Shown here: positions 43,181 through 64,000 of the stretch, piece after piece
Numbering within the stretch: position 1 is the stretch's first letter
Layout of the letters: every line of letters starts with the position of its first letter
Position numbers and translations under genes: made by a program
Source: Holophagae bacterium
GTDB taxonomy: Bacteria > Acidobacteriota > Holophagae > Acanthopleuribacterales > Acanthopleuribacteraceae
Length of the DNA stretch: 64,000 nucleotides
Assembly (NCBI GenBank): GCA_030429565.1
Contig: JAUIFE010000001.1
Span: 434,001-498,000 of the forward strand
Reading direction: 5' to 3'
The notes under the pieces: generated by a model
Seen by the model: the letters and a program-made list of their open reading frames with translations, nothing else
Database searches by the model: none
What the model was told of the DNA's origin: nothing

Positions 43181-46100
43181 GCCGCCTTTACGCGGCACCT
43201 CGATACCGGCAAACCAACCAGCGACGCCGCCCCCATCACACCGCAACCGGCGCCGCCGCGCCAACCGCGCGTTACCGCCGCACCGCAAACGACGCCTAAA
43301 GCCAGGCCGTCCCTTAAGGCAGCCGAACCCAACGAGATCCGGGTCGACGATATCGCCGTCATCGGCATGGCCGGCATGTTCGGCGGCGCCGCCGATCTCG
43401 ACACCTTCTGGCAAAACCTGCTTGAGGGTCGCGACATCATCACCCAGGTGCCCGCCGACCATTGGGACATCCAGCCCTGGTTCCATCCCGAGCCAGGCAC
43501 CGAGGACCGCACCTATTGCCGCAACGGCAGTTTCATCGAAAACGTCTACGGCTTCGACCGCGAGTTTTTCAACCTTTCCGAACGGGAAGCCCAGTGGATG
43601 GATCCCCAGGTGCGCTTACTGCTGCAAACGGTTTACGCCGCCGCCGAAGACGCCGGTGTCGTCAAACACCTGCGCGGTTCCAAGACCGGTGTGTTTGCCG
43701 GCATCTGTTTCGCCGATTACGCCGACGAACTGGCCGCCGCCAAACTGCCGATCTCGCCCTATTCGCGTACCGCCGGCCCGGAAGGCGCCGCCAACCGCAT
43801 CTCCTTCCACTTCGACCTCAAAGGCCCGAGCCTCGTTTTTAATACCGCCTGTTCGTCCGCGTTGTTTGCGCTCCACGCCGCCCGCCAAGCCCTGCGCAAC
43901 CGCGAGTGTGACACCGCTTTTGTCGCCGCCGCCAACTTGGTGCTGAGTTCGCAACATTACCGCTACTTCTCCGCGCTCGGTTCGCTCTCCCGACACGGAA
44001 GCTGCCGCAGTTTCGACGACACCGCCGATGGTTATGTGCCGGGCGAATGTGTCGGTGCGGTTTTGTTAAAACCGCTGGCCCGCGCCGTCGCCGATGGTGA
44101 CCGCATCCACGCCGTCATTAAAGGTTCCGCCGCGCTGCACGCCGGTTACACGCCTTCATTTACCGCGCCGAGCGTGACCGGTCAGGAGAACGTGCTGCTT
44201 CAGGCTTGGCGGGACGCCGACATTGATCCCGCCAGCTTGACGTTCATTGAAGCCCACGGAACCGCCACCAAGCTGGGTGATTCCATCGAGATCAGCGCCC
44301 TCAAAAAAGCCTTGGCACAGCATACCGACAAACGCGGTTTCTGCACCGTCGGCACCGTCAAAACCCATCTGGGCCACACCGAAGGCGCCGCCGGTATGGC
44401 CGGTCTCCTCAAAGTCATCCTGCAAATGAAACACCGCTGTTTGCCGGCCATGGCGTCGTTGACGACCCCGAGCAGTTACCTGCGCCTCGACAACGCGCCG
44501 CTGCGCCTCGCCGACACGACCCGACCCTGGTCCGACGCAGACGGCCCGCGCCGCGCCGGTGTCTCCGCCTTTGGGTATTCCGGCGCCTATGCCCACGTCG
44601 TCGTGGAAGAATACAACCCGCCCACAAGCGCCGTGACCCGTCCGCAAACACCGGCGCTGGTGGTCCTTTCCGCCCGCGATGACGAGACCCTGCGCACCTC
44701 GGCCGAACGCCTGCGCGCCTTTATCCTTCGCAACCAAACCCACCTCGCCACCGACACGGCCGCCGCCGGCCAAGTTCGGCAATGGGAAACGCGGCTGCGC
44801 CAAATCGTCGGTGAGCTGCTTCAAGTGAGTGCCGAAGACATTGAGCGCGACCTCAGCTTAGCCGAATACGGTGTCGAACCGGTTTTTTATGCACAACTGG
44901 CCGAGCGTTTGGCTCACGAGCAGGTCCACCTGGCGCCCGCCTTTTTCTTGGAACACCCCACGCCGGCCCGCATTGCCGCCCAACTCGCCCGCACCGACGC
45001 CGGCCAACCGGCGGCCCAGAGCAGCGCCCTCAACCTTCACGATTTGGCCTACACCCTTCAGGTTGGCCGCGCCGAGATGCCGCAACGCCTGGGTCTGATC
45101 GCGCATTCCCTGGATGAAGCGGTCCAACTTCTCGACGATTACCTGGCGGGCCGCGACGCCGCCGCCCTGTTCCACGAACACACGGACCGACACCGGGAAA
45201 CCCTGGCTTTGTTCGCCGACGACGAGGAACTCGACGCCGTCGTTAGCGGTTGGTACCGGCGCGGTCGTTTCGAACGCCTGTTGGCCCTGTGGGTGCGCGG
45301 TTTCCCCTTCGATTGGTCGCGCTTTTACGAAGCCGACGCCCATGTCCCGCAACGTATTAGCTTGCCCACCTACCCCTTTCACAGCACCCCCTATGTGCAT
45401 CCCGCCCTCGCCCCGGACCCGATCGCCGCCCCGCCCTGTGAACAGTCGCCGCAAGCACCGCCGCCGGCGACACCCAACCCGGATACGCACCAGGCCGCGC
45501 ACGCTTGGCGTTTCCTTCCCGCCGACGCCGCGCTCACCGACGCCGGTGGACCCGAACCACCCCAAAAAGCACAACGGCTCTTGCGCCAATTGATTGCCCA
45601 CCGGGTTCACCGGCCCATCGACCACATTGCCCCCGACGCGGGTTTTCTCGAACTCGGCATGAAATCACGCGACCTCGTCAGCCTGGTTCAGGCGCTATCC
45701 CACCTGTTGCGCGCCGATCTCACCCCCGGCCTGCTGTTCGAATACACCACCGTCACCGCCCTTTCCAATTGGCTCGTCGACCAATACGAAGCGCAACTGC
45801 GGGCCATGCACGTATTGCGGCGTCAAACCCCGGCCCCGTCCGATGTGACGGAACCAGCCGCGCCTGCCGCCGCGCCGCCGCCATGCCTGCCGTTATCCGA
45901 AGGCCAACAAGGACTTTGGTTCCTGCAAAAAGCCGACCCAACCATGCATACCTTCAACTGTGCGCTTTCGTTCCGCGATACTTTGGACAGCGCCCATTTC
46001 GAAGCCGCCTGCCGCCTTTTGCAACAACGTTTCCCCATTCTGACCACCGTTTTCGAAGAAGATCGCCACGGAACCCCATACCAAGTGCAGCGGCCCGAGG

Positions 46101-49100
46101 CGCCGCTCGAACTGCACCACGCGGCGCCCGTCACCGAAGCCACGCTGACCGCTCGCTTACAGGAACACACCCAACAGCCCTTTGACATGACGCGATCCCT
46201 GTTTCGCGTCACCCTTTTCCCTTGTGGCAAAGAAACCGTCGTCCTGCTCAATGTGCATCACGCGATCTTTGACGGCAGTTCCTTTTCCCTGCTGCTCAAC
46301 ACCTTGCTGCATCTTTACGCGGAACAGCGCGCCGGTCGTCAGCCCATCGCCACACCACCCGAGCGGGATTACAGCGACTACGTGCGCGAGCAGCAACAGT
46401 TGTTGGCGGGCGAGGTCGGCAGGAAACGTTTGACCTGGTGGCGCCGCCAACTGGCCGATATGCCGCCGCGTTTGGAACTGCCGCTGGACACGCCCCGCGC
46501 CAAAAACCCTAGCGCCGCCTGCGCCAACCAAAGGCTGCGCGTCTCTGATGCGGACAGTCAACGCATTCGGGCCTTCAGCCAAACCCGCGCCGCTTACCCC
46601 TCGTCCTTTTTCCTGAGCCTGTTTCACAGCTTGCTGCACGCTTACAGCGGTCAAGACGACATCATCGTCGGCATGCCGGTCAACGAACGGGGTGCCGAGG
46701 ACCTGGCCAACATCGGTTACTACATCAACATGGTACCCATCCGCTGCCGTGATTTGGGGCGGCGCTCCTTTGCGCAAATCCTCCATCAATGCCAAGTGAC
46801 CCTAGTCGACAGCATGGCCGGCAGCCTGCCCTTCCCAACTCTCGTGCGCGAATTGGGCGCCAACGGATCCGATCACCATCCTATCTTCCAGGTCGCCTAC
46901 GCCTATCAGAACTTCCCCCGTGGCGAAAACGCCGCGGCCACCCAACCGGCAAACACACCCACCCTCGTTGACGGCCTCGTTCAGCCAAGCAACTACGACC
47001 TCGACCTCGAGGTCTACGACCGCCACAGCGGTTTTGAGCTCAACCTGCGCTACAACGCGGACCTGTTTACCGACGAAACCGTCGCCTGTTTGCTGGGCCA
47101 CCTGCAAGCGCTGATCGACGCCGTGCTCGCTCGGCCCGATCAACCGATTGCCGCGCTGAACCTCCTCTCCGAAACCGAGCTGCAATTAATGCAAACAACC
47201 TGGAACGCCACCGACCGCGTCTATGCCGACGGCGACCAATGCATGCACACCTTGTTCGAACGCCAAGCCGAACAAACGCCGGACGCGGTCGCGTTGCGCT
47301 ACGACGGCCAGGCGCTGACCTATGCCGAACTGGAACAACGCACCCGCCGCCTGGCCCTCAGCCTGCAAGCGCGCGGCGTCGGCCCCGAGGTGCGCGTGGG
47401 CGTCTGCCTCGAGCGCTCTTTCGACATGGTCGTCGCCCTGCTCGGGGTTCTGCGCGCCGGCGGCGCCTACGTCCCCTTGGATCCCGATTACCCCGCCAAT
47501 CGGCTCGCCTACATGGTCGACGACGCCGCACCCGCCCTGATCCTGACCCATGCCGAGCTTGCCGACCGGCTCCCGCACCAAGACATCCCCTTGTTGTGCC
47601 TCGATCAGCCCGACCGGCAGGAGCGCGAGGAACCAGAAGCAACCCTCAAGCGCGACGTCAGCCCCGACAACCTTGTTTACGTGCTGTACACCTCGGGCAG
47701 TACCGGCCGGCCCAAAGGCGTCATGGTGACGCACCGCGCCCTCGTCAACCGCATCCTGTGGATGCAGGAAACCTACGACTTAACCCCGCAAGATCGCATT
47801 CTGCAAAAAACGCCCTTTAGTTTTGATGTTTCCGGCTGGGAGTTCCACTGGCCGTTGATCGCCGGCGCCACCCTGGTCATCGCGCCGCCGGGCAAACACA
47901 AAGAGCCGCGCTGGCTTTGCGACACCATCCGTGCGCAAGCGATCACCATGCTGCATTTCGTGCCGTCCATGCTCAACGCTTTTCTGGAAGAGGACGGCGT
48001 CACAGGTTGTACCCACCTGCGCAAGGTCTTTTGCAGCGGTGAGGCGTTAACGCTCAGTCTCAAAAACCGCTTCTTTGAACGCCTGCCCGACCAGGAATTG
48101 CACAATCTCTACGGCCCCACCGAAGCCGCGATTGATGTCAGTTTCCACGCCTGTCAACCGCAGGAAACCACCGTGCCCATTGGCAAACCCATTGCCAACA
48201 CGGCCTTGCTGATTCTCAACCGCGCCGGGGTCCCGGTACCTCGCGGCGTTCCCGGTGAATTGTGCCTCGCCGGTGTCGGTTTAGCACGCGGCTACCTCAA
48301 CCGGCCCGAGCTCACCGCCGACACGTTTGTTCCCGCACCTGGCTGCATCGCTCACCTGTCAGGCCAACGTTTGTACCGCACCGGCGATCTCGTCCGTCGT
48401 CGCGCCGATGGTGCGCTTGAGTATTTGGGCCGCATCGACCACCAGGTCAAACTTCGCGGTATGCGCATCGAGCTCGGTGAAATCGAAGCCGCCCTGCTCC
48501 GTCAGCAAGGCCTACACCACGCCGTCGTCCAAGTACGCGACCTTCACGGCGAACAGCATTTGGTCGCCTTTTACGTGGTTGGGGAGACGCCGCCATGGAC
48601 GCCGACGTTGTTGCGCGACGCCCTCACCCAAGAATTACCCGCCTACATGGTGCCCACCCTGTTTCACCCCCTCCCGCACATGCCGCTTTCGGCCAATGGC
48701 AAAATCGACCGGCGCCGCCTCGCCAACGAAACCCTAACCCTGCAATCGGAACGCCCTTATCGCGCACCACGCAACCCGCTTGAAACCCAACTGGTCGCCC
48801 TTTGGGCCGAAGTGCTCGGCCTGGAACGCGTCGGCATCGCGGACGACTTCTTTGCTTTGGGCGGGCATTCCCTAACCGCGTTAAAGCTGCTTGCCCGCAT
48901 TGAAACAACCCTGGGACGACGTCTTCCCGTCAGTGTGCTTTTCCAAACACGCCAACCCATGCTGCTCGCCGCCTGGCTCAACCAAGAACAGGCCGGCGCC
49001 GCTTCCGCTTTGGTCAAGCTTCAGCCCGCCGGTGACGCCACCCCGCTTTATTTCGTGCACGGCTTGGGCGGGCACAGTCTCAACTACCTGCCGCTGAGCC

Positions 49101-49882
49101 GGGCCCTTGGCAACAACCAGCCCCTGTTCGGCTTTCAGCCGCCTGGTTTGGAAGACGATCGTGAACCCTGCCAATCGATTGAGCAACTGGCCGACGCCTA
49201 TGTGGCAACCATGCTCGCGCACCAACCCGACGGCCCCTTCCAGCTCGGCGGTTGGAGCATGGGCGGCGTCATTGCCCACGCAGCCGCCTGTAAACTCCAG
49301 GCAATGGGTAAGCCGGTCAGCCGCCTGATCCTGGTGGACAGCTACCTCGCCACCCATTTCCAGCGCTTCGCCGAAATTCTGACTGAAGCAGGTATGGCAA
49401 CGGACCACCTGCCGGCCATGGCCGCCGCTGATCCCCTCGACCAGTGCCGCGCCATGCTGCGCGAAATGGGGTTGCCGGTTGCGCCGGCGGAAGGCATCGA
49501 CGCCATGATCCATCGCGGCGACGTCAACGCCGCATTGGCTTTACCGCCGCAAGCCTTGCAGCGACTGCTGCGCATCCGTTGTGCCAACCACGAAGCTTTG
49601 CGGCTCTACCGGCCGAGCCGTTCTTTTGACGGCGACACCCATTATTTTTATGCCCTTCACCGCAATGTGCAGCACCCCGACCTAGCCGCGCCCATCGCCG
49701 ATGCCGACCTACGCCGTCGCATTGAAGCAGCCACGCGCCGTCTTTGGTCCCAGGTCCTCTGTGCCGCCAATACCCGGTTTGTCCTGCTCGACAGTAACCA
49801 TGACCACATGATTCGGGAACCGCATGTGCATGAAATCGCCGCCGCGATTCGAGGCACAGCCCAAATGGAGAACGATCGATAA
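41993..49882 (+). CDS. Terminal hybrid PKS/NRPS, 2629 aa: DH-ACP-KS-ACP-C-A(Ser)-PCP-TE
   Basis: Overlaps the previous gene by 4 nt. An N-terminal docking segment (41993-42090) leads into a dehydratase-fold domain (42100-42870) with HTIDGKQVLL (the motif Pro is Leu) and WLDPLIT (Asp kept, Gln to Thr). Then ACP (42950-43170, GMASMQ), KS (43340-44620, TACSSA, EAHGTAT, intact), an ACP-like insert lacking Ser (44770-44990), ACP (45560-45780, GMKSRD), condensation domain (45880-47200, HHAIFDG at 46256), adenylation domain (47250-48730), PCP (48760-48970, GGHSLT) and type I thioesterase (49020-49870; GWSMGG with Ser at 49256, His in SNHDHM). The A-domain code read by eye is D-V-W-H-F-S-L-I-D-K, the classic serine signature. 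The TE makes this the release protein: the chain ends in a seryl unit and leaves by hydrolysis or cyclisation. Confidence 0.96.
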   Translation: MNQNTLYQMVQAGKIDPLAFARHMKRLKRQHPTAVVEPLCETYVYDEPYLRDHTIDGKQVLLGVTHAALAINAWFSQNPNAPAVHLQRLNFTEPIEVGPGQKAEVRIETQPGAAALDMTARYRVGSENPWRQTAHGRLSASRFQAESVDWAGLQAGLTPHPDLGQLYSAGAPVFGVGPSFRVIDRLAVGDGKALATLTLPSGAHHYWLDPLITYSAFTALIPLLKQGLGGAFLPFGIKSLEYQRGEPLRTCHVFVRLVKNSGEMILFDVDLFDAQQRQVTRYRGCSIKRLRFPQQHAAEPAASPTVQPTAPAPHAGGSTSSRIQAYLRGKLADAVGVAPAAIAPDANLMDGGMASMQLVEMAADLEREMGIELDPTLFFEYPNLRELTAYFADQHRAAFTRHLDTGKPTSDAAPITPQPAPPRQPRVTAAPQTTPKARPSLKAAEPNEIRVDDIAVIGMAGMFGGAADLDTFWQNLLEGRDIITQVPADHWDIQPWFHPEPGTEDRTYCRNGSFIENVYGFDREFFNLSEREAQWMDPQVRLLLQTVYAAAEDAGVVKHLRGSKTGVFAGICFADYADELAAAKLPISPYSRTAGPEGAANRISFHFDLKGPSLVFNTACSSALFALHAARQALRNRECDTAFVAAANLVLSSQHYRYFSALGSLSRHGSCRSFDDTADGYVPGECVGAVLLKPLARAVADGDRIHAVIKGSAALHAGYTPSFTAPSVTGQENVLLQAWRDADIDPASLTFIEAHGTATKLGDSIEISALKKALAQHTDKRGFCTVGTVKTHLGHTEGAAGMAGLLKVILQMKHRCLPAMASLTTPSSYLRLDNAPLRLADTTRPWSDADGPRRAGVSAFGYSGAYAHVVVEEYNPPTSAVTRPQTPALVVLSARDDETLRTSAERLRAFILRNQTHLATDTAAAGQVRQWETRLRQIVGELLQVSAEDIERDLSLAEYGVEPVFYAQLAERLAHEQVHLAPAFFLEHPTPARIAAQLARTDAGQPAAQSSALNLHDLAYTLQVGRAEMPQRLGLIAHSLDEAVQLLDDYLAGRDAAALFHEHTDRHRETLALFADDEELDAVVSGWYRRGRFERLLALWVRGFPFDWSRFYEADAHVPQRISLPTYPFHSTPYVHPALAPDPIAAPPCEQSPQAPPPATPNPDTHQAAHAWRFLPADAALTDAGGPEPPQKAQRLLRQLIAHRVHRPIDHIAPDAGFLELGMKSRDLVSLVQALSHLLRADLTPGLLFEYTTVTALSNWLVDQYEAQLRAMHVLRRQTPAPSDVTEPAAPAAAPPPCLPLSEGQQGLWFLQKADPTMHTFNCALSFRDTLDSAHFEAACRLLQQRFPILTTVFEEDRHGTPYQVQRPEAPLELHHAAPVTEATLTARLQEHTQQPFDMTRSLFRVTLFPCGKETVVLLNVHHAIFDGSSFSLLLNTLLHLYAEQRAGRQPIATPPERDYSDYVREQQQLLAGEVGRKRLTWWRRQLADMPPRLELPLDTPRAKNPSAACANQRLRVSDADSQRIRAFSQTRAAYPSSFFLSLFHSLLHAYSGQDDIIVGMPVNERGAEDLANIGYYINMVPIRCRDLGRRSFAQILHQCQVTLVDSMAGSLPFPTLVRELGANGSDHHPIFQVAYAYQNFPRGENAAATQPANTPTLVDGLVQPSNYDLDLEVYDRHSGFELNLRYNADLFTDETVACLLGHLQALIDAVLARPDQPIAALNLLSETELQLMQTTWNATDRVYADGDQCMHTLFERQAEQTPDAVALRYDGQALTYAELEQRTRRLALSLQARGVGPEVRVGVCLERSFDMVVALLGVLRAGGAYVPLDPDYPANRLAYMVDDAAPALILTHAELADRLPHQDIPLLCLDQPDRQEREEPEATLKRDVSPDNLVYVLYTSGSTGRPKGVMVTHRALVNRILWMQETYDLTPQDRILQKTPFSFDVSGWEFHWPLIAGATLVIAPPGKHKEPRWLCDTIRAQAITMLHFVPSMLNAFLEEDGVTGCTHLRKVFCSGEALTLSLKNRFFERLPDQELHNLYGPTEAAIDVSFHACQPQETTVPIGKPIANTALLILNRAGVPVPRGVPGELCLAGVGLARGYLNRPELTADTFVPAPGCIAHLSGQRLYRTGDLVRRRADGALEYLGRIDHQVKLRGMRIELGEIEAALLRQQGLHHAVVQVRDLHGEQHLVAFYVVGETPPWTPTLLRDALTQELPAYMVPTLFHPLPHMPLSANGKIDRRRLANETLTLQSERPYRAPRNPLETQLVALWAEVLGLERVGIADDFFALGGHSLTALKLLARIETTLGRRLPVSVLFQTRQPMLLAAWLNQEQAGAASALVKLQPAGDATPLYFVHGLGGHSLNYLPLSRALGNNQPLFGFQPPGLEDDREPCQSIEQLADAYVATMLAHQPDGPFQLGGWSMGGVIAHAAACKLQAMGKPVSRLILVDSYLATHFQRFAEILTEAGMATDHLPAMAAADPLDQCRAMLREMGLPVAPAEGIDAMIHRGDVNAALALPPQALQRLLRIRCANHEALRLYRPSRSFDGDTHYFYALHRNVQHPDLAAPIADADLRRRIEAATRRLWSQVLCAANTRFVLLDSNHDHMIREPHVHEIAAAIRGTAQMENDR
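43340..45790 (+). other. Module 12: KS-(ACP-like insert)-ACP
   Basis: An intact KS, a Ser-less ACP-like insert (GVEPVF), then a functional-looking ACP (LGMKSRD). No reductive domain, so a beta-keto unit precedes the terminal seryl module. Confidence 0.72.
45880..49870 (+). other. Module 13: C-A(Ser)-PCP-TE release module
   Basis: Serine code D-V-W-H-F-S-L-I-D-K, intact C, PCP and TE motifs. The final unit of the product is predicted to be seryl-derived. Confidence 0.85.
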
Positions 49883-49947: not shown

Positions 49948-51126
49948 ATGAAGAGACTTCCCGTCAAATGGATGATCGCCCTGTGTTTCATTTCGCCCTT
50001 AATGGCCGCCGATCAATATTCGCTCGTCATCGATGCCGGCAGCAGCGGCTCGCGGATCTACATCTACCAAGTCGTCCCCAACCAGCACGATGACTTGCCC
50101 GCCGTCACCTATGTCGACAGCACTAGTGTCAATCCGGGCATTTCCGACTACAACGCCGATCCCGCCGCCGCCAAAGCCAATCTGCAAAAACTCATCGATT
50201 TCGCCAAAAGCAAAGTGCCCGCCGCCGTGCAAAAAGCCACGCCGTTACGTTTGATGGCAACCGCCGGCATGCGCATGCCGATTCGGACGGAACGGGACCA
50301 AATCATGACGGACGTCAACGCGTTCTTTAGCGCGGATGGTTCCTTCTCGTACAAAGGCGGCGTGATCTTGGCCGGTTCCTACGAGGCGCTTTACAGTTGG
50401 GTCGCGCTGAACTACAGCAATGATCAATTCGACCCGGCTCAAGCACGCGAAGGAATTATGGAGATGGGCGGTGCATCCACGCAGATCGCTTTCCACCGTA
50501 AGAAACCATTTAAGCATCACTACGTGGCCCGCGCTTACCGGGGCAAGGCCTATAACATTTACGCACGCAGCTACTTGTTCATGGGCCAAGTGGAAGCCAT
50601 GAAACTGTCCGTCGATTCGCCGTGTTACCCCAAAAAGTACCCAATGGATTTTGGCTTCGGCACCGGTAATTTCGACGACTGTTCCAACGAAATCATGGAG
50701 CGCTTCAACTCGATCTGCGAAAACATGGAGCACGGCAGAGGTCCTCACTGCATCTTTAAGAGACCGGTTAAGTCACGGGCCAACATCGCTTACTTCGCGG
50801 TACCCGCCTTCAAAGAAACCTTCGAGTTTTTCGGGCTCACCCCGGACGTCGATTTGAACGAACTGGCCGCGCAAGGTCGCGATTTCTGTTCCATGGACTG
50901 GGAGGCCGTCCAAGCCAAGTACCCGGACATCCACCCCTTCTTTCTCAAAACCTTCTGCTACAACGCCGCTTACTTCCACACCCTGATCAAAGAGGGGTAC
51001 GGCTTTGAAGACCGTGGCGCCAAGATTCTGCCCAACGACGGCAGTTGGACGTTGGGTGCCGTCATCGACACCCACATGGGTAACGAGCCCGCCGAATACA
51101 AAGCAGGCCGTAAACCGAAAACCTAA
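49948..51126 (+). CDS. Secreted GDA1/CD39-family nucleoside di/triphosphatase (apyrase)
   Basis: A 392-aa protein with a Sec-type signal peptide (K/R-rich start, hydrophobic stretch 8-19, likely cleavage after the Ala at about 20). Apyrase conserved regions are visible: ACR1 VIDAGSSGSR (about 27-36), ACR2 LMATAGMRM, ACR3 SYEALYSWVALNY with the expected catalytic Glu, and ACR4 MGGASTQIAF. At least six Cys in the C-terminal half fit disulfides of an exported enzyme. The family hydrolyses extracellular NTPs and NDPs. It is mainly eukaryotic and patchy in bacteria (Legionella is a known case). The gene follows the thioesterase gene on the same strand and ends the unit just before a terminator. 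Whether it takes part in the pathway, degrades external ATP or only shares the operon cannot be told from sequence. Confidence 0.9.
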   Translation: MKRLPVKWMIALCFISPLMAADQYSLVIDAGSSGSRIYIYQVVPNQHDDLPAVTYVDSTSVNPGISDYNADPAAAKANLQKLIDFAKSKVPAAVQKATPLRLMATAGMRMPIRTERDQIMTDVNAFFSADGSFSYKGGVILAGSYEALYSWVALNYSNDQFDPAQAREGIMEMGGASTQIAFHRKKPFKHHYVARAYRGKAYNIYARSYLFMGQVEAMKLSVDSPCYPKKYPMDFGFGTGNFDDCSNEIMERFNSICENMEHGRGPHCIFKRPVKSRANIAYFAVPAFKETFEFFGLTPDVDLNELAAQGRDFCSMDWEAVQAKYPDIHPFFLKTFCYNAAYFHTLIKEGYGFEDRGAKILPNDGSWTLGAVIDTHMGNEPAEYKAGRKPKT

Positions 51127-51409: not shown

Positions 51410-51728
51410 CACAATCCACCAGCCGGCCGCCCAACCAAATAAACCACCCCTCCTGGCCACACAGCACACAGGACACAGCCGCAATGCCGCGCAGCAGCGC
51501 TTGCACGTCGGCTCCGCTCAGCGCATGCAAAACCGCCGCACCGCTGAGAGGCAAGGCCCAGTGCAGTTACCCATGATTGCGGCCGTCACCCACACTGATG
51601 CTGCGCAACGGAGCGCGCGGGGTCAACGGCACCCGCGTTGCACCCGATTGAACCGTCACGGCGAGATCCAGCGGCGTATGTTAATGCCCGCGAAAGTGTC
51701 GCGCAGGAGGGCCGCCAAACGCACCGGT
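51410..51728 (-). pseudogene. Decayed 3' fragment of an A-ACP-AOS-SCP2-like synthase gene
   Basis: On the minus strand this reads as a degraded copy of the C-terminal SCP2-like end of the intact gene at 60665-64000. SGADVQALLRGIAA..CVLCGQ and FIWLGGRLVD match [14 protein letters not shown]-like, CVLQGQ and [10 protein letters not shown] stretches of the intact protein; LHWALPLSG matches PHCSLRLSD but follows a stop. The DNA also matches upstream (ACCGTCACGGCGAG, GCCGCCAAACGC), with frame breaks. No ATG-led product is likely. The copy stops abruptly just before the first CRISPR repeat. The rest of 51165-51785 shows no gene. Confidence 0.8.
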
Positions 51729-51785
51729 CAGGTCGCGAGCGCGGTCACAAAATTATGCCACCGAGTGAAGAAAGTTTGCTACCTG

Positions 51786-54686
51786 GCTTTTACTCGCGCA
51801 ACGACTCCAAGGCCGCATTGCGACGCCAGACCGACCGGTAACCACCAGGGCACATCGTTCCTACTCGCGCAACGACTCCAAGGCCGTTGCGACGCAGCGA
51901 ACAAACTGGCGTTTTACATCGAAGGGTTTCTACTCGCGCAACGACTCCAAGGCCGTTGCGACGTGACCCGTTGGAAGTATCTTAAAATAAAAGCGTTTCT
52001 ACTCGCGCAACGACTCCAAGGCCGTTGCGACCGTGGCCTAACCAACAAAACCAACTGCGCCAAGGATTCTACTCGCGCAACGACTCCAAGGCCGTTGCGA
52101 CAACCCATGCACGTTGACCATTAACGCGCACGCCGTTTCTACTCGCGCAACGACTCCAAGGCCGTTGCGACCGGACTAGAGCTTCTTGTTGCCACTAAGT
52201 GGCGTTTCTACTCGCGCAACGACTCCAAGGCCGTTGCGACATTTGACATAAGCTGTTTGCTCCCAAGGCTTAGAGTCCCTACTCGCGCAACGACTCGACG
52301 GCCGTTGCGACGTTTACCCGCGCGGCACCCGGTTTTTCATCACCTTTTCTACTCGCGCAACGACTCGAAGGCCGTTGCGACGGAAAACTATCCTGCTGGC
52401 GAATGACTGTTTTGTTTTTACTCGCGCAACGACTCGAAGGCCGTTGCGACGATACCTGACTCCATGAAAGGGTTTGCGAGATCGTTTCTACTCGCGCAAC
52501 GATTCGAAGGCCGTTGCGACACAGAGACCTCGAGCTAAATCAAGAGCTCGACAACGTTTCTACTCGCGCAACGACTCGAAGGCCGTTGCGACATTGAGAC
52601 CCAAACGATAAATAAAGAATGGGAGTTTCTACTCGCGCAACGACTCGAAGGCCGTTGCGACGATCTTGATTATATGTATGACTCGGTTGCGCAGGTTTCT
52701 ACTCGCGCAACGACTCGAAGGCCGTTGCGACCACCAAATTTGCAACGAGTATGGTGAGTTCAGCGTTTCTACTCGCGCAACGACTCGAAGGCCGTTGCGA
52801 CTAAGGCTGCCGTGGTGCAGGAACTCTTGCAGGGTTTCTACTCGCGCAACGACTCGAAGGCCGTTGCGACACCAGTGACACCGCCTCAACTAGTGCGGCT
52901 ATGGTTTCTACTCGCGCAACGACTCGAAGGCCGTTGCGACACCTGACGGCGATCTCCGGTATGGCAGTCGGCGGTTTCTACTCGCGCAACGACTCGAAGG
53001 CCGTTGCGACATGACGGCTGGGATCCACTCGGGGTAGGCATTGTTTCTACTCGCGCAACGACTCGAAGGCCGTTGCGACCTATTTTCTGCGTGGCTACCA
53101 AAACCTTCGCCGTTTCTACTCGCGCAACGACTCGAAGGCCGTTGCGACATTCATTATTGAGGCGGGTTCGCCTCACAATAAGTTTCTACTCGCGCAACGA
53201 CTCGAAGGCCGTTGCGACAAATCCTGCAGTTAAGCGATCAAGGGGCAGTGAGTTTCTACTCGCGCAACGACTCGAAGGCCGTTGCGACATGACCGGCCCG
53301 CTGGGTGCTGATACGCCGCTGGTTTCTACTCGCGCAACGACTCGAAGGCCGTTGCGACATGCTCGCGAGTGGGATGGCCGCATTAGCATCGTTTCTACTC
53401 GCGCAACGACTCGAAGGCCGTTGCGACGCCGCCAACAAGGGCGGTGATGGCAAGACCGCAGTTTCTACTCGCGCAACGACTCGAAGGCCGTTGCGACTTA
53501 AAAAGTATATCTAAAGATAATATTACACATGTTTCTACTCGCGCAACGACTCGAAGGCCGTTGCGACGGCGGTCGTCGCGTGCGGCGGCAATGGTATCGC
53601 GTTTCTACTCGCGCAACGACTCGAAGGCCGTTGCGACAATCCTTCAACGCGATTGCCGCCGAGCTTAATGTGTTTCTACTCGCGCAACGACTCGAAGGCC
53701 GTTGCGACGAGCTGGAGATTGATTTGAGCATGACCCTTCGCAAGTTTCTACTCGCGCAACGACTCGAAGGCCGTTGCGACCGGGTTCGGCAACGCGGAAC
53801 ACCAGAACATCCTGTTTCTACTCGCGCAACGACTCGAAGGCCGTTGCGACACTGTCAGGCGGCGTAATAAACATATACGCCATGTTTCTACTCGCGCAAC
53901 GACTCGAAGGCCGTTGCGACAAGACCCATAGCCACCCACCAACCCACCATATGTTTCTACTCGCGCAACGACTCCAAGGCCGTTGCGACCGTCACCCGCT
54001 TCACCCGCCTTGTACCAATCTGTTTCTACTCGCGCAACGACTCGAAGGCCGTTGCGACTCACGTCGACGGCGGCGGTCCCTTTTTTGGCCGGTTTCTACT
54101 CGCGCAACGACTCGAAGGCCGTTGCGACACGTGATGAAGCCGCGCGAGGTGTGCGGTTAAGTTTCTACTCGCGCAACGACTCGAAGGCCGTTGCGACGCC
54201 GCACGGCAGGTGCCGGTGACGGCTGTCGTGTTTCTACTCGCGCAACGACTCGAAGGCCGTTGCGACATTTTGTTTACAGTGTAATTACATACGAGAGAGT
54301 TTCTACTCGCGCAACGACTCGAAGGCCGTTGCGACAGAGGCGGCTCGCCGTTGTCTACTGGGAGCCAAGTTTCTACTCGCGCAACGACTCGAAGGCCGTT
54401 GCGACAATTTTCGAGTCACTGGATGGATGGCTTGATTCTGTTTCTACTCGCGCAACGACTCGAAGGCCGTTGCGACATTAATCAATAGAGACAACTGGCG
54501 TGCTCAACGGGTTTCTACTCGCGCAACGACTCGAAGGCCGTTGCGACCTCGCCACGGTGCACGCCACCAAAGGCGGGACGTTTCTACTCGCGCAACGACT
54601 CGAAGGCCGTTGCGACTTCGCATTCTTGACGGAAGCGAGGGTATTAAACGTTTCTACTCGCGCAACGACTCGAAGGCCGTTGCGAC
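51786..54686 (-). CRISPR. CRISPR array, leader-distal segment: 42 repeats, 41 spacers
   Basis: The 37-nt repeat begins GTTTCTACTCGCGC and ends CCGTTGCGAC on the + strand, with an internal inverted pair CGCAACG/CGTTGCG. Period is 69-72 nt and spacers are 32-35 nt, all different by eye. On the minus strand the repeat begins GTCGCAACGG and ends GAGTAGAAAC, the usual orientation of a crRNA 3' handle. Repeats at 51786, 51857, 52065, 52275, 52345, 52414 and 52484 carry point changes, the first also a 2-nt insertion, and the first seven plus 53953 have CTCCAAGG for CTCGAAGG. Decay at the left marks the old (trailer) end. No cas gene is in the window. Confidence 0.97.
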
Positions 54687-54719
54687 CTCACCATCTCGGC
54701 AATCCAGTGGGTGTTGCCG
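54687..54719. repeat. CRISPR spacer cut off from its right-hand repeat by the mobile element
   Basis: Exactly 33 nt, the modal spacer length, between repeat 42 (ends 54686) and the start of the element's left inverted repeat. If the element is removed the next repeat is the one at 57270. Confidence 0.7.
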
Positions 54720-54733
54720 GTTGAACTAAACCG
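54720..54733 (+). repeat. Left terminal inverted repeat of the IS91-like element
   Basis: GTTGAACTAAACCG, matching the reverse complement of 57184-57197 at 13 of 14 positions. A short hairpin ACCGC-TTC-GCGGT overlaps its right side. Confidence 0.65.
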
Positions 54734-54780
54734 CTTCGCGGTAGTTGGCGCCCGCGACCCAATACAGACCACCTTGTAAA

Positions 54781-54810
54781 TCGAGGGTGATGTAACTGCA
54801 TCACCCTCGA
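54781..54810 (+). promoter_or_regulatory. Perfect 12-bp hairpin in the recombinase leader
   Basis: Arms TCGAGGGTGATG and CATCACCCTCGA with a 6-nt loop TAACTG, 9 nt before the Shine-Dalgarno. It could be an operator, an attenuation stem or part of the element's end. There is no T-run after it, so it is not a typical terminator. Confidence 0.6.
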
Positions 54811-54818
54811 CCCAAAAC

Positions 54819-54826
54819 AAGGAGGT
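54819..54826 (+). promoter_or_regulatory. Strong Shine-Dalgarno of the recombinase gene
   Basis: AAGGAGGT, fully complementary to the 16S rRNA tail, 5 nt before the GTG at 54832. It supports GTG as the start. Confidence 0.8.
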
Positions 54827-54831
54827 CACCG

Positions 54832-55710
54832 GTGACTCACCTCAGGACACAATTTACACAGTTTTTGACCATTCGCAACTATGCACCTTCCAGCATCACC
54901 AAATATGTCAACGTCGTTTCCGATCTTGCCTACCATTACCACCGCCGCCCAGACCTGATCACTTACCCCGAGATCCAGCATTATCTCCATTACCTCGTCA
55001 CACGACGTCGCTTCGCCTGGGCTACCGTTCACCTTCACGTCTCTGCTTTACGCTGCTTCTACTACCAGTTTCTCAACATCCCCTATTCCGACTTCGTCAT
55101 TCCAACCCCGAAACAACCCAAACGCTTGCCCCTGATTTGGACGCCTGCCGAGATCCAACACCTGATTCGTGTCGCCGGCAAACACTGCCCGCAAACCCGG
55201 ACCATTTTGATCGTGGCCTACGCCACCGGCCTTCGGCTTAGCGAACTGTGCCGCCTCCATCTCCGCGACCTCGATCCCGGCCACAAAACCATTTGGGTCC
55301 GACAAGGCAAGGGCCGTAAAGACCGTGCCGCCCTTTACACGCCACGACTCCGTGAATCCCTCCAACGCTATATCCGGGCTTATCGCCCTACTTCCTACCT
55401 CTTCTTCCGGCCCAATCAACACGACCTTTCCGTTACTCCTTCCGCCTTCGTTAGACGCTTCATCAAACTCAAACAGCGTGCCGGTCTCCAACGCGAAGGC
55501 GGCATCCATTCCTTCCGCCACAGCTTCGCCACCCATTTGGTCGCACGCGGCACCGACATCCACACGGTTCAAAAACTGCTCGGCCACAAAAACATCAGCA
55601 CCACCCAAGTCTACGTCCACCTCGCCCAAAGTATGATCCTCGCCCGCGCTGATTCCCTCGACCTCCTCGACTTTCGCAGCATTCCCGGTGCTGAAGACGG
55701 CGCGCCGTGA
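54832..55710 (+). CDS. Tyrosine recombinase/integrase of the IS91-like element
   Basis: A 292-aa protein with an N-terminal SAM-like core-binding domain (about 1-95) and a C-terminal catalytic domain. Catalytic residues are all visible: Arg in ATGLRLSEL, Lys in GKGRKDR, HxxR in HSFRHSFATHL, His in LGHKNIS and Tyr in TQVYVHL. It resembles Xer/phage-type integrases. Its stop overlaps the transposase start (GTGA), so the pair is translationally coupled; this arrangement is seen in other IS91-like elements. Translation starts at GTG behind a perfect Shine-Dalgarno. It probably acts on the element's own DNA, for instance resolving a circular or co-integrate intermediate; that role is inference. 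Confidence 0.93.
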   Translation: MTHLRTQFTQFLTIRNYAPSSITKYVNVVSDLAYHYHRRPDLITYPEIQHYLHYLVTRRRFAWATVHLHVSALRCFYYQFLNIPYSDFVIPTPKQPKRLPLIWTPAEIQHLIRVAGKHCPQTRTILIVAYATGLRLSELCRLHLRDLDPGHKTIWVRQGKGRKDRAALYTPRLRESLQRYIRAYRPTSYLFFRPNQHDLSVTPSAFVRRFIKLKQRAGLQREGGIHSFRHSFATHLVARGTDIHTVQKLLGHKNISTTQVYVHLAQSMILARADSLDLLDFRSIPGAEDGAP

Positions 55711-56912
55711 GCCTTGCCGCCTGTACCACGCCGACACACTCGGCCACGCTTCGCCTCGGCGCCATCCTTGCCGCGCTACCAGAATCCTTCACCCACCCGC
55801 TCACTCACCACCAACGCCGTGCCTTTCGGGACCTCGTCCGCTGTCGCACGCCGGCACTAGGCGGTGAACTTTGGGCCTGCGGTCACTGTGGCCGCCAGGT
55901 GCCTGTTTATCATTCCTGCGGCAACCGTCATTGTCCGCGTTGTGGCGCGGCCGCACGCGCCCGATGGGTTGGGCAACGCCTCGACGAGCTGCTACCCGTC
56001 CCCTACTTCCACACCGTGTTCACCCTGCCCAACGTGCTTAACCCACTCATCCAAGCCAATCCTCGTCAGCTCATCGGACTCCTCTTTCGCGCCGTTTCAG
56101 CCACCTTGCGTTCCTTTGCCCGTGATCCCAAACACCTGGGCGCCGAACCCGCTGTTCTGATGGTGCTTCACACCTGGGGCAGCCGTCTCAACCTTCACTA
56201 CCATATCCATTGCGTCGTTACCGGCGGCGGCTTGACCGACAACGGAACCTGGGTACCGGCCAAGTCGACCAAATTCCTGTTCCCGGTCAAAGCCATGTCA
56301 CCGGTCTTTCGCGGTAAGTTCGTTGACGGCTTGCACCGGCTTTTGGCCACGGCGTCCCTCCGTTTCCCGCATCACATCAATCCAAAAAGCTGGGCCGATC
56401 TCAAAGCCAAGCTCTATGCCAAACCATGGGTCGTTTACGCCAAACGGCCGTTTGGCGGCCCGGCTCAAGTCCTTAAGTACCTCGGCCGCTATACCCACCG
56501 TACCGCCATTTCCGACCAACGCATCCTCGCGCATCGTCGCGGCATGGTCACCTTCCGTTACAAAGACTACAAACGCGGCGGCAAACAACGCCGATTGATC
56601 CTTCCCGAAGCGATCTTCGCCAAGCGTTTCTTGCAACACGTCTTGCCACCCGGCGTCAAACGCGTCCGTTACGCCGGCTTGTTGGCGAGTTGCAAGAAAA
56701 GGCGTTGCCTCGCCCTAGCACGCGCCGTCTTGGGCGTGGTAACCATTGACCCACAGGCGGCGTTGCCCAAACGCAAAGACGAAGCACCCGCCGAACGCGA
56801 AGACGCACCGCGAACCTGCCCCTTTTGCCAACAGCCCAAGCTTGTTTTCCAGAAGCCACTTGCTGTCGAAACATCCACGCCGCCGACTCCCCCAACCAGC
56901 GACACATCCTAA
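55707..56912 (+). CDS. IS91-family transposase (HUH/Y2-type, zinc-finger N-terminus)
   Basis: A 401-aa protein starting at GTG inside the recombinase stop. The N-terminal zinc-binding region has CGHCGRQ then CGNRHCPRC. The HUH metal site is NLHYHIHCVV, and the catalytic tyrosine lies in YLGRYTHR. These are the defining features of IS91/ISCR-type rolling-circle transposases, which nick single strands and move without target duplication. Length fits the family. The reading frame is intact, so the element may still be active. It is transcribed against the inferred direction of the CRISPR array. Confidence 0.95.
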   Translation: MSLAACTTPTHSATLRLGAILAALPESFTHPLTHHQRRAFRDLVRCRTPALGGELWACGHCGRQVPVYHSCGNRHCPRCGAAARARWVGQRLDELLPVPYFHTVFTLPNVLNPLIQANPRQLIGLLFRAVSATLRSFARDPKHLGAEPAVLMVLHTWGSRLNLHYHIHCVVTGGGLTDNGTWVPAKSTKFLFPVKAMSPVFRGKFVDGLHRLLATASLRFPHHINPKSWADLKAKLYAKPWVVYAKRPFGGPAQVLKYLGRYTHRTAISDQRILAHRRGMVTFRYKDYKRGGKQRRLILPEAIFAKRFLQHVLPPGVKRVRYAGLLASCKKRRCLALARAVLGVVTIDPQAALPKRKDEAPAEREDAPRTCPFCQQPKLVFQKPLAVETSTPPTPPTSDTS

Positions 56913-57198
56913 AAGCTGCCCTGTTCCGCATGACAGGTTCCATGAACGGGCTTGGATCAGCGAGTCCAAGCCGGCCTATGCCTAGAGCACGGTTCGCCCA
57001 TCGGCAAAACCGCTGACGCAACCCAAAACGGCACATTCAGAACCCAAAACACCGCCGATCGGCGTGTGCTTGAACCATTCCAAGCAGCCTAATGCGCCGA
57101 CCGGTGCTAAAGAAAAGGAGACCGACGCATTAAATCCCCATAAGGCGAGGGCTTATCGGTTCACGAGCAGCCGCGCCGCTCACCGGTTCAGTTCAACA
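56913..57198. other. Non-coding right part of the IS91-like element
   Basis: About 285 nt without a convincing gene. It holds a 12-nt perfect palindrome CGCCGATCGGCG (57053-57064), a Shine-Dalgarno-like AAAAGGAG (57112-57119) with no ATG behind it, and the right inverted repeat (57184-57197). Confidence 0.6.
57184..57197 (-). repeat. Right inverted repeat of the IS91-like element
   Basis: CGGTTCAGTTCAAC, the reverse complement of the left end with one mismatch. Confidence 0.65.
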
Positions 57199-57263
57199 CG
57201 TTTTATCGTTAAGCGATGAAGCTGAAAAATCGGCCAAGCTTTGTCCCGCTTCACGATAAAACG
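57199..57263. repeat. Long-arm hairpin at the right end of the element
   Basis: 17-nt arms CGTTTTATCGTTAAGCG (57199-57215) and CGCTTCACGATAAAACG (57247-57263) pair at 16 of 17 positions around a 31-nt loop, ending 6 nt before a CRISPR repeat. It may be the rolling-circle origin end (oriIS-like). Confidence 0.6.
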
Positions 57264-57269
57264 CTCTTC

Positions 57270-58216
57270 GTTTCTACTCGCGCAACGACTCGAAGGCCGT
57301 TGCGACGAGCTGACCCGGCTTGAAGCGGTAATCCCGCTGTTTCTACTCGCGCAACGACTCGAAGGCCGTTGCGACCGCCGCGGCAAAGGACGCGGCCGGA
57401 ACCCATGGTGTTTCTACTCGCGCAACGACTCGAAGGCCGTTGCGACAGGGTTCCCCAGCCTCAAAGCTTCCATGTTGGGTTTCTACTCGCGCAACGACTC
57501 GAAGGCCGTTGCGACCACATACCGCTTGCTTCGGAGTTGATGCTGAAACGTTTCTACTCGCGCAACGACTCGAAGGCCGTTGCGACTTTTTTAGCGTTGC
57601 TGTATCAGTGGTCCAATAAGTTTCTACTCGCGCAACGACTCGAAGGCCGTTGCGACCCTAGCGGTATCTCTAATCTGGGTACCCACGGAGGTTTCTACTC
57701 GCGCAACGACTCGAAGGCCGTTGCGACGGGGCGAGGCGTCCGCTCTGTGATGCGCACCGAGTTTCTACTCGCGCAACGACTCGAAGGCCGTTGCGACTCG
57801 CATTGCCGCCTGTCGGCAATGCCCGTCACATGTTTCTACTCGCGCAACGACTCGAAGGCCGTTGCGACTTGGCCTGATGTTCCGCCGGGAACTATTATCG
57901 AGGTTTCTACTCGCGCAACGACTCGAAGGCCGTTGCGACTTCTCTCCGCAGTTATCAGTCTCCCTCACTTGTTTCTACTCGCGCAACGACTCGAAGGCCG
58001 TTGCGACTAAAAAAGAGGAGTCAGATATGAACTACGAATTGTTTCTACTCGCGCAACGACTCGAAGGCCGTTGCGACACCCCTAAAACGTTCATTCAACC
58101 GATAAACGGTGTTTCTACTCGCGCAACGACTCGAAGGCCGTTGCGACGTATCCCACTCAACAGCAAACAATCTATTCGCGTTTCTACTCGCGCAACGACT
58201 CGAAGGCCGTTGCGAC
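57270..58216 (-). CRISPR. CRISPR array, leader-proximal segment: 14 repeats, 13 spacers
   Basis: The same 37-nt repeat as in the left segment, without the point changes seen at the far-left end, with 31-34 nt spacers. Repeat starts: 57270, 57339, 57410, 57479, 57550, 57620, 57691, 57761, 57832, 57903, 57971, 58041, 58111 and 58180. The uniform repeats and the AT-rich flank on the right mark this as the young, leader-side part of what was one array of 56 repeats. Confidence 0.97.
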
Positions 58217-60664: not shown

Positions 60665-63600
60665 CTATACGCGCGAAAAAACCTCGGAACCGGCAGCCGC
60701 GCGCCAATCCACCAAACGGCCGATCAGCCAGATAAAGGGTTCAACCTGACCCTGAAGCACGCAGGTACCCGCCGCAATACTGCGCAGCAGCGCTTGCACG
60801 TCACTTTGGTTCAATGCGCTCAGAACCGTTGCATCCGATAGACGCAAGCTACAGTGCGGTAACGCCTTATCGTAGTCGTCACCCAAACTCACGTTGTGGT
60901 TTTGGATCTGTAACGTCAAAGCTTCCTGGGTTTCGCCCAGTTGAACCGTAACGGCGAGGTCCGGCAGCGGCTTTTGTTCGGCCGCGATCGCGTCACGCAG
61001 GAACGCCGCCAAACGCGCAGCCCACGTCTCCAGTTCACCCAGGCTGGGCGCCGTTTGTTCGGGCGCGATCGTCGCCCGGCCCGCGTCGATCTCGCGTTCG
61101 GCGTCGATCAGCGCCGCCAGCGTTTTGTCGACATCGGCGCGCGTGTGCGACGCGGAGCAAATCAAGCGCAGGCGCCCACGGCCTGGCTCCACAATGGGAT
61201 ACGTCACCGCCGAAACCTGCACGCCGCGTTGGAACATGCCCTGCACCAAAGCGTACAGCTTGTCTTTGTCGGCAAAGTGCGGCGTCACAATCGGGCCGTC
61301 GCCGGTGCCCAAATCGTAGCCGGCTTTGGTAAAGGCCTCGCGCATGTAACGGGTCGTGTCCCACAGGCGCGCGCGCAACCCCTCGTCGCTGCTGAGCCGA
61401 CGCAACGCGGTCAGCGCCGCCGCCATATCGGCCGGACTCACTGACGCCTGGAATATGTAGGCACGCGCCGAAGACTTCAACAGGTCGACGTATTCGCGTC
61501 GCGCCGCAATCACGCCGCCCAGACTGCCCAAGGCTTTGCTGAGCGTGGTCATAATGAAGTCGACCTCGTCGGTAACACCGGTTGCCGCACAAATCCCAGC
61601 GCCGCGCGGTCCATAAAAACCAAATGAGTGCGCCTCATCGACCAATACCAAGGCGCCGTGTTCTTTGGCGGTACGCACCAGCTTTGCCACCGGCGCCGCG
61701 CCTTCACCCATGCTGTACACGCCTTCAATCGCCACCAGAACGGTGCGGTAGGGCGAGGTTTCGGAGGCCAGCACCGCCGCCAGATCGTCGGCGTTGTTGT
61801 GTTGGAAGGTGCGGATGGTAGCGCCGCACAAACGCGCACCGTCCACAATCGAAGCGTGACATAACTGGTCGAGCACCACCACATCACCGGGACCCAACAG
61901 GCCCGCAATCACACCCACGTTGGCGGTGTAACCGGTGGGGAACAAACAGGCTGCCGCTTTGCCGGTCAAGGCGGCAAACTCGTCTTCAAAGGCCAAATGC
62001 AGGTCGGTCATACCCGACGCCGCCGCCGAGGTGCCCATTCCGGTACCAAAGTTTTCGACCGCCTCGCGCGCCGCCGCAATCACGGCCGGATCGCGGTTCA
62101 ACCCCAAGTAGAGGTTGGTTGTCCAAATCACCGCTTCTTGTTCTTCGTCGGTATAAGCGTCACCAACCAAACCACGACTGGCGCTGCCGGTGCGAATCAC
62201 CTTGCTGTAGGGGTTGCGGCGGTCGTCGTTTACCAAACGCATCACTTCTTGAACCAGCTTGCCTTTATCGGTCGCCGACCAAGCGTTGGCTTTGGCGGCC
62301 TGGAAGGTGGGGTGACTCGATTGGATATGCGCTTGGAACAAACCCAGCGAATCAACCTTCGCGGCGGCCGGTTTTTCAGCCGGCGTCGGCGCTTGGTTCA
62401 CGGATTCCGACAACAACGCATCGGCCAAAGCCGACGGCGTGGCGTGTAAAAACAGCGCCTGCACCGTTAAGTCGCGTCCCAACGCCTTGCTCAAGCGCCG
62501 GCTCAGTTCCGGTTTGGTCAAGGAGTCGAGCCCAAATCGGTCGAACGCATGGTGCGGCGCCAGTTGCTCGGGATCGGCCACGTGCAACAGGGCCGCCGCT
62601 TCGCGCTGGATGGTCGCCACCATGGCGGCGTGCTGTTGCGGCAAGGAAGCGGGAACGGCGCAGTGCGGCCCCTCCCCGGCTGTTGATTGGGACAAAGCCG
62701 CGTCACGCACCGCCGCCAGGTCCGGCAACCGTTCGCGATCGAGCTTGTCGTTGGGCAACAGCGGCAAGGCGTCGAGCGCCATTACCCATTGCGGCACCAT
62801 GTATTCCGGGAGACGTGAGGCCAGGAAGCTTTTCACCGCCGCTTCGGTGACCGCCGGATCTCGGCTAACCACATACATAACCAAAACCTTGGCACCAGTT
62901 GGACCCTCGTGCGCGGCGGCAGCGGCCGCATCGACGCCGTCCATCGCCTCCAGTACCGATTCAATCTCACCCAACTCGATACGGTAGCCACGCACCTTAA
63001 CTTGCTGATCGACGCGACCGAGAAATTCAATCTCACCATTGTCACACCACTGCACCAAATCACCGCTGCGGTAAAGGCGTGATTCGGGGACGGCCGCACT
63101 GGGCGTGACCGTCACAAAACGCGCTTCGGTCAGCGCCGGCTCGTGCAAGTAGCCGCGCGCCAGCTTCGCGCCGGCCAAAAACAATTCACCGGGAACGCCG
63201 GGCGGCAAGGGTTGCAGCCTTTCGTCGAGAATGTAAGCGCGACCACCGGCAACCGAGCCGCCAATGGTGACGCGCGCGACGCCTGGCTGCAACGCACAAA
63301 TCGTGGAAAAAACCGTATCTTCGGTTGGGCCGTAGGCGTTGATAACCCGTGGCGCGGTAGGCAACGCATGGATCTGACGCACCAGCGAAAGTTTCAGCGC
63401 TTCGCCGCCAAACACAACACAGCGAATGCTTGCGGGCAAGGGTGCGCCGGCCAAAAGCGCTTGCATTGCCGACGGCACCATCACGCAGGTCCGTACCTTG
63501 TCCACCATCGGCAATTTCGGCAAAGCCAGCCCATTCTCACCCAAAACAACCGTGCCGCCGAGGGATAAGGTTCCCAACGTCTCCATCACGGAGGTGTCAA

Positions 63601-64000
63601 AACAAGCCGAGGCGCCGGCAAACACACCTTCCAGCTCGGCTTGGCTGAACAGCCGACCCATGGCACGGCTCATGGCGAGCAGGTTGTCGTGGCCGACAGC
63701 GACGCCTTTGGGTTGGCCGGTCGAGCCGGACGTGTAAATCACGTAAGCCAAGTCGTCGGCCTTAGGTTGCACCGCTGCGTGGCGCGGCTCGGCGGCTTCG
63801 ACGTGGCGCAGCCAAATCAACTCGGCAACGCCGTCACAAAGCGCGGCGGCGTCGCGATCATCGACAATCACGGCGGCAGCGCGGGAATGCTCGAGCATGT
63901 AACGCACCCGGGCGGGCGGATAAGCCGGATCCAGCGGAACGTAAGCGCAACGGGCGCGCTGCACACCGATCAGGGTCGCAATCAGTTCCCAAGTGCGCGG
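60665..64000 (-). CDS. A-ACP-alpha-oxoamine synthase-SCP2-like fusion, partial (5' end outside window)
   Basis: The frame is open to base 64000 ([13 protein letters not shown] before [10 protein letters not shown], an adenylation-domain core), so the start is off the right edge. In coding order: A domain, C-terminal part about 64000-62750 ([23 protein letters not shown]); carrier protein about 62650-62390 (FGLDSLT); PLP-dependent alpha-oxoamine synthase about 62280-61060 ([13 protein letters not shown] Lys in TTLSKALGS at 61537-61535); and a C-terminal SCP2-like domain about 60980-60700. The oxoamine synthase fold joins an amino acid to an acyl thioester with loss of CO2, so the enzyme may make an alpha-amino ketone from a carrier-bound acyl chain. 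The A-domain pocket, read by eye as D-T-M-V-V-G-A-V-F-K, is not one I recognise. A decayed copy of its 3' end lies at 51410-51728. Confidence 0.9.

Follow-up and report, generated by a model that had tools for sequence, protein, structure and literature searches.

An IS91-family insertion sequence lineage that probably targets the 3' end of CRISPR repeats

Introduction

Arrays of clustered regularly interspaced short palindromic repeats (CRISPR) are described as near transposon-free, and elements that interrupt them are usually read as an accident or a loss of function. The CRISPR loci of the Sulfolobales have been called 'relatively intractable to transpositional events', and insertion sequence (IS) insertions in CRISPR loci are described as rare (PMC4390879). 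Casual insertions into CRISPR loci or cas genes are known for ISC1359, ISH4 and IS10 (PMC4390879, PMC10359306), and those into cas genes are a route to immunity loss (PMC10359306). Here we analyze a 2,550-bp IS91-family element that splits a CRISPR array in 64,000 nt of DNA from a Holophagae bacterium (contig JAUIFE010000001.1, positions 434,001 to 498,000; hereafter the window). Very likely, it represents a lineage of Y2 rolling-circle-type IS91 elements that targets the 3' end of CRISPR repeats.

The targets of IS801 are GAAC, GGAC, CAAG and CGAC, and target variants within the IS91 family are documented (PMC3189936). Other insertion sequences, including ISPsy8, ISPa11 and ISPpu9/10, are specific for repetitive extragenic palindromic (REP) sequences (PMC1525189).

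Results

The interrupted array and its element

The element is an IS91-family (Y2) insertion sequence with two genes. Its parts and immediate surroundings in the window are as follows.

~51857..58216, minus strand: CRISPR array split by the element; 37-nt repeat, CRISPR RNA (crRNA) sense on the minus strand (GTCGC...GAAAC)
54687..54719, no strand assigned: intact 33-nt spacer left of the element, from the reading of the array
54720..57269, plus strand: IS91-family element, 2,550 bp, delimited by an identical second copy and by flank divergence
54724..54746, plus strand: left (ter) end, with a short GC-rich hairpin within GTTGAACTAAACCGCTTCGCGGTAGTTGGC; these 30 nt recur unchanged in copies 1 and 2 of a related element described below
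54832..55710, plus strand: open reading frame 1 (ORF1), tyrosine recombinase, 292 aa, motifs intact; Phage_integrase and SAM-like N-terminal domains
55707..56912, plus strand: ORF2, IS91-family transposase, 401 aa, overlapping ORF1; Zn_Tnp_IS91 and Y2_Tnp domains
57199..57263, plus strand: right (ori) end, a long hairpin that stops 6 nt short of the junction
57270..57306, minus strand: intact repeat abutted by the ori end; its first 13 nt, GTTTCTACTCGCG, fit the motif GTTYMTMCYCGCG considered below

A preliminary description of this DNA had called the element IS91-like, and the domain matches bear this out. ORF2 scores 197 and 96.7 bits against the Pfam domains Y2_Tnp and Zn_Tnp_IS91 (cut-offs 20.9 and 26.3) and 402.7 against NCBIfam transpos_IS91 (cut-off 125), and its catalytic motifs are intact, with HUH as LHYHIH from residue 163 and Y-x3-Y as YLGRY from residue 258. 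The best NCBIfam matches of ORF1 are XerA-type, followed by integron integrase. Within the 2,550 bp, family matches are confined to these integrase and transposase genes; the remaining long frames overlap them, either antisense or in a different reading frame. No cas genes or Cas1-type casposase were found inside the element, so it is neither a Tn7-like CRISPR-associated transposon nor a casposon; the same 2,550 bp hold no phage or mobilisation genes that would make it part of a prophage or an integrative mobilizable element.

The same description had placed the insertion at a spacer/repeat junction and held that removing 54720-57269 restores a regular array. Both statements stand: the gap between the repeats around the element measures 2,583 nt, that is, 2,550 plus the intact 33-nt spacer on the left, with an intact repeat on the right. 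Degenerate repeats lie on the left (trailer) side of the array and AT-rich leader-like sequence to the right of 58216. We class the array as type I-C-like. The cas genes of the window's own genome (G000) are type I-C (Cas3c, 5c, 8c, 7c, 4, 1), and their operon, together with arrays of near-identical repeats, lies on the minus strand at C54:504.8-512.7 kb, which gives the crRNA orientation. On contigs C54 and C67 of this genome, several arrays together contain at least 317 repeats that belong to one family; two arrays enclose the I-C cas operon at C54:501.6-514 kb.

A second copy in the same genome

The 10.4-Mb G000 assembly, searched in full with the element DNA, yielded exactly two matches, both full length (1-2550) and 100% identical. 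The second copy, at C54:338460-341009, is 150 kb away in a different CRISPR array with the repeat variant GTTTCTACCCGCGCAACGGCTCGGAGGCCGTTGCGAC, and occupies the same repeat position in the same orientation. Its inter-repeat gap is 2,582 nt, or 2,550 plus a 32-nt spacer, so that subtracting 2,550 nt restores a regular array at both sites; each junction reads complete spacer, then element, then repeat. On the left the two copies have no flanking sequence in common (0 nt), and on the right they share just the 8 nt with which the repeat begins; each copy is bordered on both sides by its own repeat variant. The element boundaries rest on array regularity and on the identical second copy. They are uncertain by at most 3 nt, with GTT at both junctions: because element and following repeat both start with GTT, a 3-bp 'GTT' duplication and no duplication look the same.

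A related element in another genus

Among 100 relatives, a single-contig genome of 11.8 Mb from another genus of the same family (G003) encodes transposases ~60% identical to the window's ORF2 in four places, with the HUH and Y-x3-Y motifs kept. All four copies lie in arrays with the repeat GTTCATCCCCGCGGGCGCGGGGAACAC or a near variant. The nearby cas genes are type I-E (Cas6e, Cas8e, Cas3e) and give the crRNA orientation; this I-E repeat is otherwise unrelated to the I-C repeat of G000. Repeats flank every copy on both sides, the left ones being degenerate trailer repeats in three. The left end GTTGAACTAAACCGCTTCGCGGTAGTTGGC is identical in the window element and in G003 copies 1 and 2, and differs by one base in copy 3. 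At the ori end, the G003 element has a hairpin of different spelling that likewise ends 6 nt from the junction.

Two of the copies are complete, copy 2 with 2,636 bp and copy 3 with 2,634 bp. In copies 1 and 4 the same internal deletion joins the integrase start to the transposase; in copy 4 the fusion is in frame and gives a 466-aa open frame. The shortened form seems to have moved, because these two copies sit in different arrays. In this form (L045:6838-8734; L047, reverse strand, ~7190-9087) the transposase is without part of its zinc-binding region. ORF1 is broken in 4/4 G003 copies, by a stop after ~200 aa (copy 2), a frameshift (copy 3) or deletion of the catalytic part (copies 1 and 4), and is intact in both G000 copies. 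Three of the four insertions are 1-2 repeats from the trailer end (G003:C1:8956776-8968230, 9002.6-9005.4 kb and 9010-9012 kb), a position that could reflect old insertions or selection against leader-near hits.

One insertion rule for all six copies

Across two genera, five arrays and two CRISPR types, 6/6 copies use the same repeat edge in the same orientation: the right (ori) end lies against the repeat 3' end, the crRNA handle side, and a complete spacer adjoins the left (ter) end. The abutted repeats end in ...GATGAAC (I-E) or ...GAAAC (I-C) at the junction, and the element genes are oriented opposite to CRISPR transcription. The ori-edge core is GTTC in 4/4 G003 copies and GTTT in 2/2 G000 copies. 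In the ends of the six copies we saw no terminal inverted repeats and no target duplication longer than GTT; ter and ori ends are distinct, each with a hairpin. Compared with shuffled sequences, the ori hairpin gave z = -4.5 in the window element and -4.7 in the other element tested, and the ter hairpin is weak on energy alone (z -0.6 and -1.5). Outside the arrays, DNA searches of G000 and G003 detected no element DNA, and searches of five further family genomes detected none at all. That CRISPR repeats would act as a landing pad, as proposed for the window array, is thus borne out by 6/6 copies in two genera.

Site counts were estimated from background composition, with samples of 27-70 kb, so that the odds are rough. 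For G000, whose arrays hold 317 repeats, we estimated ~118,000 GTTT and ~31,000 GTTTC sites; for G003, with 182 array repeats, the estimate is ~129,000 GTTC sites. Were sites picked at random, the odds would be ~7e-6 (GTTT) or ~1e-4 (GTTTC) for G000 and 3.9e-12 (GTTC) for G003. In the arrays inspected, there was no insertion other than this element; in the arrays read, no spacers matched it beyond chance.

Relatives outside arrays

In a tree, the CRISPR-located transposases group together on a single branch (support 100/100). Sister elements in another genome (G019) comprise two multi-copy types; the edge is GTTT in 3/3 copies of type b and less clear in the other type, and all nine copies are dispersed, none in arrays. 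Around ~97 loci of more distant IS91 transposases (<=49% identical), taken from contig collections, from plasmids and from genome samples built around the home phylum, a genome of the Bacteroidota and one of the Bacillota, the fetched flanks contained no CRISPR array. The Bacteroidota- and Bacillota-centred samples (~715 genomes) held no close member and none in arrays; a scan of genome-contig collections with a single transposase gave 10 relatives at <=45% identity, none in arrays; viral contigs gave one 42% relative with no array; and ~8,400 places on plasmids were all below 60% identity. A ter-end DNA pattern run over 396 phylum genomes returned mostly chance matches; it was misplaced, with 3 mismatches to the true element, and was not used.

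What sets the insertion site

The strongest competing account, which we nonetheless consider unlikely, is that the tyrosine recombinase ORF1 sets the site: a circular form would integrate into the repeat, at G^TT, much as certain prophages enter CRISPR repeats. The intact ORF1 of both G000 copies, its next-best match to integron integrase and the GTT at both junctions speak for it, as does the left end GTTGAAC, which fits an integron-type core GTTRRRY. The breakage of ORF1 in 4/4 G003 copies and the presence of the deleted version in two different arrays speak against it, and the integrase-transposase pair of the sister elements does not enter arrays. As for precedent, PMC10359306 documents prophage integration into CRISPR direct repeats, whereas IS91/IS801 elements that lack an integrase have GAAC in their left end as well (PMC3189936). 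Because ORF1 is broken in all G003 copies and sister elements with the same gene pair lie outside arrays, we regard the integrase as the less probable determinant of the site.

Ordinary IS91 targeting, in which any GTTT or GTTC would serve and arrays would be met by chance or through their harmlessness, by selection only, is more doubtful still. The GTTT edge of the type b sisters (3/3) does indicate that a short GTTY core is real, and CRISPR arrays are dispensable; yet harmless intergenic DNA far exceeds arrays in size, the sister elements are dispersed, and the arrays inspected carry no other insertion. All six copies, moreover, fall within ~0.2% of the genome, at odds of 4e-12 and 7e-6. The preliminary description had held that the junction fits the IS91 habit of inserting beside GTTC or CTTG. 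As an explanation this does not suffice: the window edge is GTTT(C) rather than GTTC or CTTG, ~31,000 GTTTC sites compare with 317 repeats, and elements with the same GTTT edge are scattered elsewhere.

It is very improbable that a single insertion spread among arrays by homologous recombination, or that the copies reflect an assembly error. Repeats are indeed near-identical among arrays, and the two G000 copies do not differ, but the own repeat variant on both sides of each, with 0 nt of common left flank, argues against inter-array recombination and assembly mix-up alike; the four copies of G003 lie on one contig, in three arrays whose flanking spacers differ, and I-E and I-C repeats are too dissimilar to recombine. 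Capture of the element by Cas1-Cas2 as a giant spacer fits the insertion exactly at a repeat border but is scarcely credible, since capture duplicates the repeat and would give repeat-element-repeat where 6/6 copies show repeat-spacer-element-repeat, and the insertions lie away from the leader, three of those in G003 close to the trailer end.

Features of the target

We return to targeting of the repeat by the IS91 transposase. The I-C and I-E repeats agree ungapped at 9-10 of their first 13 nt (GTTTCTAC(T/C)CGCG versus GTTCATCCCCGCG), that is, GTTYMTMCYCGCG. Outside arrays, 9-12 occurrences of the motif per genome are expected, versus 182-317 array copies; because so few copies are expected elsewhere, its recognition would alone send nearly all insertions into arrays. 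In addition, each repeat type folds into a hairpin, located 5-11 nt from the junction.

The array of G003 copy 3, the second of that genome, is informative about the core. Its repeats nearly all carry GGTC or GGCC, with GTTC in only three, and the element adjoins one of those three; the GTT(T/C) 4-nt core therefore appears to be needed, and the repeats of an array are not the equal sites that the preliminary description had assumed. At this locus (L046, G003:C1:8999257-9005400) nearly all repeats read GGTCATCC and three trailer-side ones GTTCATCC. As a side observation, this pattern reads as a repeat-edge mutation fixed by leader-side growth, which would also take away the target core of the element.

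The 4-nt core is insufficient, because GTTT/GTTC sites vastly outnumber array repeats and GTTT-edge sisters are dispersed; recognition must extend past 4-5 nt. The target is likely the ~13-nt motif, perhaps plus the hairpin, rather than the IS91 tetranucleotide alone, and a structure-aware recognition mode via the repeat hairpin is equally plausible.

Neighbouring sequences

Beside the array, a ~250-bp stretch at 51486-51739 resembles 60779-61033 (~75% identity in the best pieces), the part encoding the C-terminal end of a synthase gene (60665-63964). The stretch looks like the remnant of a second copy of that gene. By eye, a 2,629-aa open frame at 41993-49882 is a hybrid polyketide/non-ribosomal peptide synthetase-like candidate, and one at 49948-51126 resembles a nucleoside-triphosphate diphosphohydrolase (apyrase, GDA1/CD39 type), which would be unusual in bacteria.

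Discussion

We think it likely that a lineage of HUH insertion sequences evolved dedicated CRISPR-repeat targeting, covering two unrelated repeat types, in which the crRNA-handle end is recognised and arrays offer many copies of a site where insertion does no harm. Drawing on what is published for IS91/IS801 (PMC3189936), we infer that the transposase would nick the CRISPR sense strand after R-A-A-C (GAAC in I-E, AAAC in I-C) and join the ori end at the nick behind RAAC. Added specificity may come from a longer contact, with either the ~13-nt GTTYMTMCYCGCG read into the repeat or the motif plus the repeat hairpin. Arrays would then be a safe harbour, because hundreds of non-essential motif copies exist almost only there. 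The insertion leaves the spacer undisrupted and splits older spacers from the leader.

Several points weigh against this interpretation. The copies number only six, from two genera of a single family. Those within a genome share one ancestor, so that the independent 'choices' are six insertions by two related elements; copies 1 and 4 of G003, which share their deletion, are independent as insertion events and not as elements. The 13-nt motif derives from only two repeat types, and mechanism and target recognition alike are read from insertion sites. Clade members may have escaped the contig-collection scan, whose exact 8-residue patterns do not occur even in the G003 transposase. Comparison with related genomes, which the preliminary description had proposed as the way to an empty site, found no orthologous one in G001 or G004: G001, of the same genus, has related repeats that match at only 65-76% identity and shares no spacers, and G004 has no match.

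If the interpretation is correct, a transposon lineage lives inside immune memory, only at the repeat edge and with spacers unbroken, and the way in which an HUH transposase recognises a structured target, or one of ~13 nt, becomes a testable problem. The element may also point the way to tools for site-specific single-strand insertion, and one can ask whether older spacers are weakened once they are cut off from the leader. Our literature search retrieved no report of an insertion sequence specialised for CRISPR repeats; subscription journals lay mostly outside that search, so novelty is unproven.

Compared with known systems, the element shares with casual IS insertions that it interrupts CRISPR-Cas, whereas those casual events are infrequent or hit spacers or cas genes. 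The REP-specific elements named above belong to other IS families. Like them, it inserts strictly into a palindromic repeated sequence (PMC1525189); unlike immune arrays, REP sequences are scattered intergenic repeats. As with the prophages that integrate into CRISPR direct repeats (cited in PMC10359306), a mobile element uses the repeat as insertion site; those prophages employ a phage integrase with the repeat as attB, in contrast to the small HUH insertion sequence found here in several arrays per genome. With the IS91-type elements that carry an upstream site-specific integrase (for example on Thiothrix, Polaromonas and Legionella plasmids) it shares the integrase-transposase order and (nearly) overlapping genes, and the transposases of these plasmid elements are 40-44% identical to that of the window element; those examined lie outside CRISPR arrays. 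It resembles IS91/IS801 themselves in its Zn_Tnp_IS91 plus Y2_Tnp transposase, no inverted repeats being seen, hairpins at both ends, an ori end beside a GTTC/GTTT core, GAAC in the left end and no clear target duplication. It differs from them in that their ~4-nt targets are spread over genomes and plasmids, whereas here one CRISPR-repeat position is used, with a GTTT core in G000.

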